Positions 32,696 to 32,975 of a stretch of DNA of 64,000 nt are shown one piece after another. How positions within the stretch are numbered: position 1 is the stretch's first letter; every line of letters begins with the position of its first letter. A model generated the notes under the pieces. That model searched no databases. It saw only the letters and a list, made by a program, of their open reading frames with translations, and was not told where the DNA came from. The stretch is from Vampirovibrionales bacterium (GTDB lineage: Bacteria; Cyanobacteriota; Vampirovibrionia; Vampirovibrionales; Vampirovibrionaceae). The stretch spans positions 62,001 through 126,000 of the forward strand of contig JAJCZA010000005.1 of the NCBI GenBank assembly GCA_029262635.1, written 5' to 3'. Position numbers and translations under genes: made by a program.

Positions 32696-32772
32696 TGGTG
32701 GGCCATCGGTGACTCGAACACCGGACCTCACCCTTATCAGGGGTGCGCTCTAACCAACTGAGCTAATGGCCC
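32696..32772 (-). tRNA. tRNA-Ile (GAT anticodon), CCA encoded
   Basis: Seven-base acceptor stem GGGCCAT/ATGGCCC, D-arm AGCTCAGTTGGTTAGAGC, anticodon stem-loop CACCC-CTGATAA-GGGTG with GAT, and T-arm GTTCGAGTC are all intact. Discriminator A is followed by an encoded CCA (32698-32696). The other tRNA in this window, tRNA-Leu, has no encoded CCA, and a second half-copy of tRNA-Ile with a different acceptor stem lies 203 bp away. This copy may have come in with the mobile element. Confidence 0.96.
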
Positions 32773-32821
32773 GTGCTGTTTCGACTCCATTGTAAGTGAG
32801 TAGAAAGTGAGTAGTCCACTC

Positions 32822-32850
32822 TTGAACCTGCAAAAACCGGGGTGTATAAT
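32822..32850 (+). promoter_or_regulatory. Strong sigma-70-type promoter facing the tRNA half-copy
   Basis: TTGAAC (32822-32827), a 17-bp spacer and a consensus TATAAT (32845-32850) lie on the plus strand. No gene start follows. A transcript would run through the antisense strand of the truncated tRNA-Ile at 32936-32975. A GAGATCGA direct repeat (32851, 32870) lies just after the -10. Confidence 0.6.
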
Positions 32851-32935
32851 GAGATCGAGCCGATGGCTTGAGATCGAAGTGGCGTCTTTCATTTAGGCTC
32901 TTTCTCCTTTCCGGGTTTTTACTAATAACATCATG

Positions 32936-32975
32936 CTTATCAGGGGTGCGCTCTAACCAACTGAGCTAAAGGCCC
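32936..32975 (-). repeat. Truncated tRNA-Ile 5' half (attachment-site copy)
   Basis: The minus strand reads GGGCCTTTAGCTC and continues through the D-arm and anticodon loop, CTGATAAG, then diverges. 34 bases (32936-32969) are identical to 32733-32766 of the complete tRNA-Ile. The 5' acceptor bases differ (GGGCCTT against GGGCCAT). It cannot form a tRNA and is interpreted as one side of a recombination junction. Confidence 0.85.

Follow-up and report, generated by a model that had tools for sequence, protein, structure and literature searches.

In classical anticodon-loop integration, attP brings the 3' part of a tRNA and the target gene is restored; the sublocations used for integration within tRNA genes have reportedly been reviewed by Williams in 2002. 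Described in 2024, tRNA-dependent lysogeny has been shown experimentally in the actinobacteriophages Fionnbharth, LeBron and Gaia, in which lysogeny required the phage tRNA, and its frequency outside actinobacterial phages was left open by the authors (PMC10865867). According to a citation in the same paper, the tRNA targeted by the Lactobacillus johnsonii prophage Lj965 is not rebuilt and a cognate tRNA is carried. The same design has been reported for T7-like prophages of Sinorhizobium (S. meliloti) resembling Mesorhizobium phage Lo5R7ANS, where the phage inserts midway into tRNA-Leu(UAG), thereby inactivating the gene, and the prophage brings a functional equivalent (PMC11476347).

The locus described here lies on contig C5 of a 31-contig draft genome (G000, 95.9% complete); the analyzed window is the whole 64-kb stretch C5:62001–126000, and positions given without a contig name refer to it. 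Very probably, a T7-like temperate prophage using tRNA-dependent lysogeny has its right-hand attachment junction at this site, a reading supported at the sequence level by the split host gene, the cloverleaf restored on rejoining, the native synteny, the single copy in the assembly and the recurrence of the layout with two other tRNAs. As in the actinobacteriophages (PMC10865867), a tyrosine integrase, an attB within a tRNA gene and a complete phage tRNA of the same isotype occur together, the core is too short for tRNA rebuilding (8–17 bp there, 8 bp here), putative arm-type pairs flank this core, and close relatives target different tRNAs. The requirement for the phage tRNA, demonstrated there, is presumed here. 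In contrast to those phages, we are dealing with T7-like podoviruses in a distant bacterial group, probably a Melainabacteria-type host to judge from genomes of its class with terminase hits like those of named Gastranaerophilales records; the targets here are Ile-GAT, Gly-TCC and Val-TAC, those of the actinobacteriophages Lys, Ile2 and Leu, and the tRNA gene is situated in the attP region, ~200 bp from the core and downstream of a captured host promoter. Inactivation by integration within the tRNA gene, together with a prophage-borne equivalent, is shared with the Lo5R7ANS-type T7-like phages, but the tRNA-Leu of Lo5R7ANS belongs to the early region, ~1.4 kb downstream of the integrase, whereas here the tRNA stands between attP and terminase, and the Lo5R7ANS terminase is only ~59% identical to the copy used as query (C5:338–2023). 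Lj965, as far as the citing paper describes it, differs in both phage type and host. Judging from the papers searched, what is new is the host group, the use of three different tRNAs as targets by a single phage lineage, and the location of a tRNA gene in an attachment site ~200 bp behind a captured host tRNA promoter. The three occurrences with three tRNAs in T7-like prophages, in a group distant from the hosts of the actinobacterial phages, are therefore usable as a comparative series.

The Split tRNA-Ile Gene and Its Displaced Half

ARAGORN and Rfam each place one complete tRNA-Ile(GAT) (70.1 bits) in the 64-kb window, and a second, incomplete copy of 39 nt (GGGCCTTTAGCTCAGTTGGTTAGAGCGCACCCCTGATAA), ending after the anticodon loop CTGATAA, lies upstream of it on the same minus strand at a G1-to-G1 distance of 203 bp (Table 1). 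The sequence-only reading had described a pair with a shared block and differing acceptor strands, which holds, including the GGGCCTT acceptor of the 5' half as against GGGCCAT in the complete copy when both copies are read; it had placed the end of the block at the anticodon loop, one base short, since the identity sets in right behind the acceptor strand and extends to the base following the loop. The recombination break falls in or beside the anticodon loop. Exact 24-mers are repeated in only two clusters in the whole window, the tRNA pair and a region near 59.4–59.9 kb, so that the tRNA repeat is not a chance occurrence.

Table 1. Features of the attachment region and the element (positions in the window unless preceded by a contig name).
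Feature	Position	Strand	Basis or remark
Right part of ~37-kb cargo	1–31577		Metal efflux, Cu P-type ATPase, alternate F1F0 ATPase operon, RND pump
T7-like terminase large subunit, C-terminal fragment, diverged	31710–32237	+	Inside window
99-aa ORF between terminase fragment and tRNA	32234–32533	-	No family match
Further arm-like repeat downstream of phage tRNA	32646–32658	-	Another at 32578–32590
Terminator-like hairpin after phage tRNA	32603–32629	-	
Complete tRNA-Ile(GAT), encoded CCA, phage-borne	32696–32772	-	ARAGORN, Rfam
attP arm and linker, from host 5' half to phage tRNA	32773–32936	-	Homologous to stretch of Val prophage
Phage-tRNA promoter-like site TGGACT-18-TACAAT	32789–32818	-	Consensus match only; arm-type pair within spacer
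Putative arm-type integrase site pair, ACTCACTT units, 11-bp period	32792–32815	-	
Attachment core CTGATAA (anticodon loop), one of two copies bounding the element	32937–32943	-	
Disrupted host tRNA-Ile(GAT), 5' half to end of anticodon loop	32937–32975	-	TPR synteny with G007/G008; match to 3' half
Host tRNA-Ile promoter-like site TTGACA-17-TATCTT, extended -10	32999–33027	-	Consensus match only
Host TPR gene upstream of tRNA-Ile, native-locus marker	33057–35327	-	Homologs in G007/G008
Int1, HTH_17 and Phage_integrase	C5:4303–5427		Beside 3' half
Int2, Phage_integrase match	C5:5411–6292		Convergent with Int1
Full-length T7-like terminase large subunit	C5:55184–56869		Outside window

A DNA search of the genome yielded a 42-bp match at C5:4167–4208 on the minus strand, which reads CTGATAAGGGTGAGG...CACCGAAGGCCCA with terminal AAGGCCC and constitutes the displaced 3' half. 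It lies to the left of the window, at a core-to-core separation of 90,735 bp, and the Int1 gene for a tyrosine integrase starts ~95 bp inward of it. Thus the prediction of a 3' half ending in AAGGCCC beyond the left edge and near an integrase was borne out, with two tyrosine-integrase genes adjoining that half; the upstream search proposed with it recovered both items on contig C5, and insertion by a tyrosine recombinase at the anticodon loop, proposed at the same time, agrees with junction halves that part in the tRNA-Ile loop and with the integrases beside the 3' half. When the outer flanks are joined in silico, they form a perfect, full tRNA-Ile(GAT) cloverleaf whose acceptor stem is paired, while one junction contains the 5' half alone and the other the 3' half alone, with no rebuilt host/phage tRNA at either.

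Plain tandem duplication followed by decay, which would make the 5' half a pseudogene fragment formed without site-specific recombination, draws on the general knowledge that partial tRNA copies beside complete ones are common. We give it next to no credence: a matching 3' half with compensatory acceptor sequence lies 90.7 kb away, an integrase and phage genes are present, and the layout is repeated with two other tRNAs. The existence of this 3' half led us to reject plain duplication as the origin of the 5' half. Tycheposons, considered as a candidate class, were dropped, the literature offering mere mentions.

The Native Locus in Related Genomes

In two genomes of the same family (G007 and G008), a homolog of the TPR gene is followed directly by an intact tRNA-Ile, and because of this order the GGGCCTT half can be assigned to the host's own locus, the host gene being the broken one. 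This agrees with the earlier view of the 32.9-kb side as the host's original 5' half. The tRNA 5' half was matched in 9 of the 10 family genomes searched (G000 included); each relative's locus holds one intact tRNA-Ile, and the tandem of a complete and a half gene, which in uninterrupted relatives would have spoken against an insertion, is absent from all of them. In a one-contig genome of the family (G004), a search able to show extra copies gave a single Ile-GAT match. Among the tRNA genes typed in the 31-contig, 95.9%-complete draft, the complete tRNA-Ile of the window is the sole complete Ile-GAT; Ile-GAT and Gly-TCC were each found once, in a draft of a completeness that could miss another copy. 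The sole complete copies of these two tRNA genes in the assembly are viral, a state that would bind host survival to keeping the prophage region. Over all 77 bases the complete tRNA-Ile is identical to the tRNA-Ile of another genome, G002, and the phage lineage may therefore have acquired its tRNA genes from related hosts.

Some of the flanking sequence bears on the history of the split. To the left of the 3' half (C5:338–3970) lies a terminase-bearing remnant; the stretch C5:1–3970 carries an apparent IS3-type transposase end, a terminase (C5:338–2023) sharing 94% protein identity with the element's own, and an ORF of 563 aa that occurs only in G000 (not found in the family relatives), with a degenerate copy on contig C1. 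Since an extra terminase and this ORF border the 3' half on its outer side, the split gene may have been modified by an older phage ahead of the present integration. In its full form this history, in which the older phage gave the 3' half and the present one entered a hybrid or phage-derived tRNA, would alter the sequence of events and leave the mechanism the same. It could also account for the 3' half having no encoded CCA, unlike the tRNA-Ile genes of the relatives; CCA is, however, likewise missing from several host tRNA genes of G000, the terminator 3' of the 3' half resembles those after the relatives' intact tRNA-Ile, and there is a single 5' half, directly behind the host TPR gene. On balance we regard such a two-step history as unlikely, though it deserves to be kept in mind, and prefer the disruption of an intact host gene by the present prophage.

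Attachment Site and Recurrence With Other tRNAs

The core CTGATAAG, counting the shared G after the loop, comprises the 8 bp common to attP and attB (CT-anticodon-AAG), the attP sequence having been derived from the two junctions and not from free phage. Pairs of ACTCACTT-type repeats occur on both sides of the core at similar distance, the one on the integrase side at C5:4337–4358, and the Val phage described below has both; these are, as expected for such a site, putative arm-type integrase sites. An arm-like pair of similar period is also seen inside both phages, between an anti-restriction ORF and the portal gene (C5:32800–32830; G010 C33:35729–35750), and, lying far from attP, could possibly be an operator or a second integrase-binding site.

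The same arrangement recurs in G000 with tRNA-Gly(TCC), where contig C12 shares an overlap of exactly 141 bp with C27: across their join, a promoter and a host 5' half (GCGGGTG...CTTCCAA) are followed at 203 bp by a complete phage-side tRNA-Gly(TCC), behind which there is a degenerate prophage. A search tolerating up to 3 mismatches found no Gly 3' half. In the phage-borne tRNA-Gly, the overlap stops one base beyond the anticodon loop, and this assembly break may mean that some cells have a different sequence at the tRNA-Gly loop. A third case, with Val-TAC, is present in G010, in the form of a host 5' half, 217 bp, a complete tRNA-Val and then terminase. Its 3' half (ATCGCCCACCA) is 42,713 bp away and adjoins homologs of Int1 (66%) and Int2 (76%); this prophage is complete (42.7 kb), and its joined flanks give a perfect tRNA-Val.

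When the inner ends are joined, the attP regions of the Ile and Val prophages prove very similar, with CATGG-CTGATAA-GCATGA and CATGG-CTTACAA-GCATGA at the core, and the Gly junction (CTTCCAAG) also fits CT-anticodon-AAG. What varies in the core from the Ile to the Val and Gly members is the anticodon. The pattern CT-NNN-AA-G fits 8 of 39 typed tRNA genes, all three targets among them, but this fit is not independent evidence because the pattern was derived from those targets. We tentatively consider, with rather more doubt than belief, that the attP core and the tRNA gene form one exchangeable retargeting cassette. In that case a swap of the anticodon triplet and the adjacent tRNA would retarget the phage with integrase and arm sites nearly unchanged, and the host promoter would go on expressing the replacement tRNA after a target switch. 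The conserved position of the tRNA beside attP opens both captured-promoter expression and target switching by core plus tRNA to testing.

The downstream flank of the complete tRNA-Ile matches that of the tRNA-Gly on contig C27, which is also followed by terminase; the complete tRNA-Ile in the window is phage-carried and not a second host gene. Ordinary tRNA-rebuilding integration would instead make it the hybrid junction and the 5' half a remnant of an older event. Related integrases in other family genomes do lie just downstream of a complete tRNA, as is usual. We consider it very improbable here, for the native promoter and the TPR neighbor go with the 5' half and not with the complete copy, the latter is bracketed by phage sequence and arm repeats common to the Val and Gly prophages, and the integrase is at the opposite end, beside the lone 3' half.

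When 382 genomes of the class were searched, only two, G000 and G072, gave Int1 relatives exceeding 50% identity; the coordinates of the G072 contig (C33) match those of the G010 Val prophage, so that G072 and G010 are apparently one genome, belonging to the order of the window's host. The viral contig collection held no close Int1 relative and no exact match to the arm-repeat pattern, and matches of Int1 in phage records were partial (about 26–32%). Eight terminase-bearing viral contigs held a tRNA, none of them with a recognizable Int1 relative, and no tRNA was present within the short loci examined in 4 further terminase-bearing genomes of the class.

Proposed Mechanism

In the tRNA-dependent scheme that we favor, an integrase, probably Int1, would act on the anticodon loop of the single host tRNA-Ile(GAT) and recombine it with CT-GAT-AAG, the short core of attP. 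Of the two resulting halves, the 5' one would keep the host promoter, at 32.9 kb, and the 3' one would come to lie next to int at a distance of 90.7 kb. As in classical anticodon-loop integration, the cut would be made in a symmetric anticodon stem-loop; unlike there, attP restores no tRNA. Both junction products are broken because attP carries no tRNA half, and with only 8 bp common to attP and attB integration would therefore destroy the tRNA, so that a phage-borne copy would have to replace it. The complete tRNA-Ile(GAT) in the attP region, lying 203 bp into the element on the same strand as the 5' half, is the candidate replacement gene, since integration does not rebuild the tRNA, and would substitute for the destroyed one. 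We infer the acting integrase, the expression and essentiality of the phage tRNA, the read-through described next and the dependence of lysogeny on this tRNA.

The phage tRNA would be expressed from a weak promoter of its own, probably supplemented by transcripts that start at the captured host promoter and read through. The host promoter-like site, just upstream of the 5' half and directed at the phage tRNA, is stronger than the phage tRNA's own site, whose counterpart in the Val phage is TGGACT-18-TATGAT (consensus match only). Read-through is plausible because the host promoter-like site faces the phage tRNA and no terminator-like site was found on the minus strand between them.

Content of the Element

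By its gene content, the 90,735-bp element is a T7-like prophage with ~37 kb of non-phage cargo. PHROGs matches identify a single-subunit T7-like RNA polymerase along with T7-like portal, capsid, tail, internal virion protein and terminase, as in podoviruses of the Autographiviridae type, and the 42.7-kb Val prophage has this T7-like set in the same order. Read from its left end, the element comprises the integrases, a defence block, DNA metabolism genes with the T7-like RNA polymerase, structural genes (portal, capsid, tail, internal virion protein, fibre and the full-length terminase), the cargo, the terminase fragment and the tRNA. An element of this size is probably too large for a T7-like head, and for this reason the prophage copy in G000 may be unable to leave.

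The two integrases differ in that Int1 has an HTH_17 domain and Int2 does not, both being conserved in the Val prophage at the identities given above; the catalytic part of Int2 is nearer than that of Int1 to relatives adjoining intact tRNAs. The defence block (C5:7061–18991) encodes a DrmD-like helicase, type III modification (methylase) and restriction genes, a GmrSD-like protein and an AAA_13 protein assigned by PADLOC to PDC-S06, with a weaker match to PrrC.

The terminase 3' end is doubled around the cargo, which spans 37 kb here and 1.7 kb in a related viral contig (L080, 9719–9791), and the two copies of this terminase end have diverged, to ~81% in protein in the G000 element. The end of the terminase gene may thus be a recurrent cargo insertion point.

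Elsewhere in G000 (C29:150576–163029), two integrases are each located downstream of a copy of tRNA-Glu(TTC), the copies being ~11 kb apart and the second having no normal 5' end; the region has the look of a stack of two integrative elements, both of the ordinary, tRNA-sharing type.
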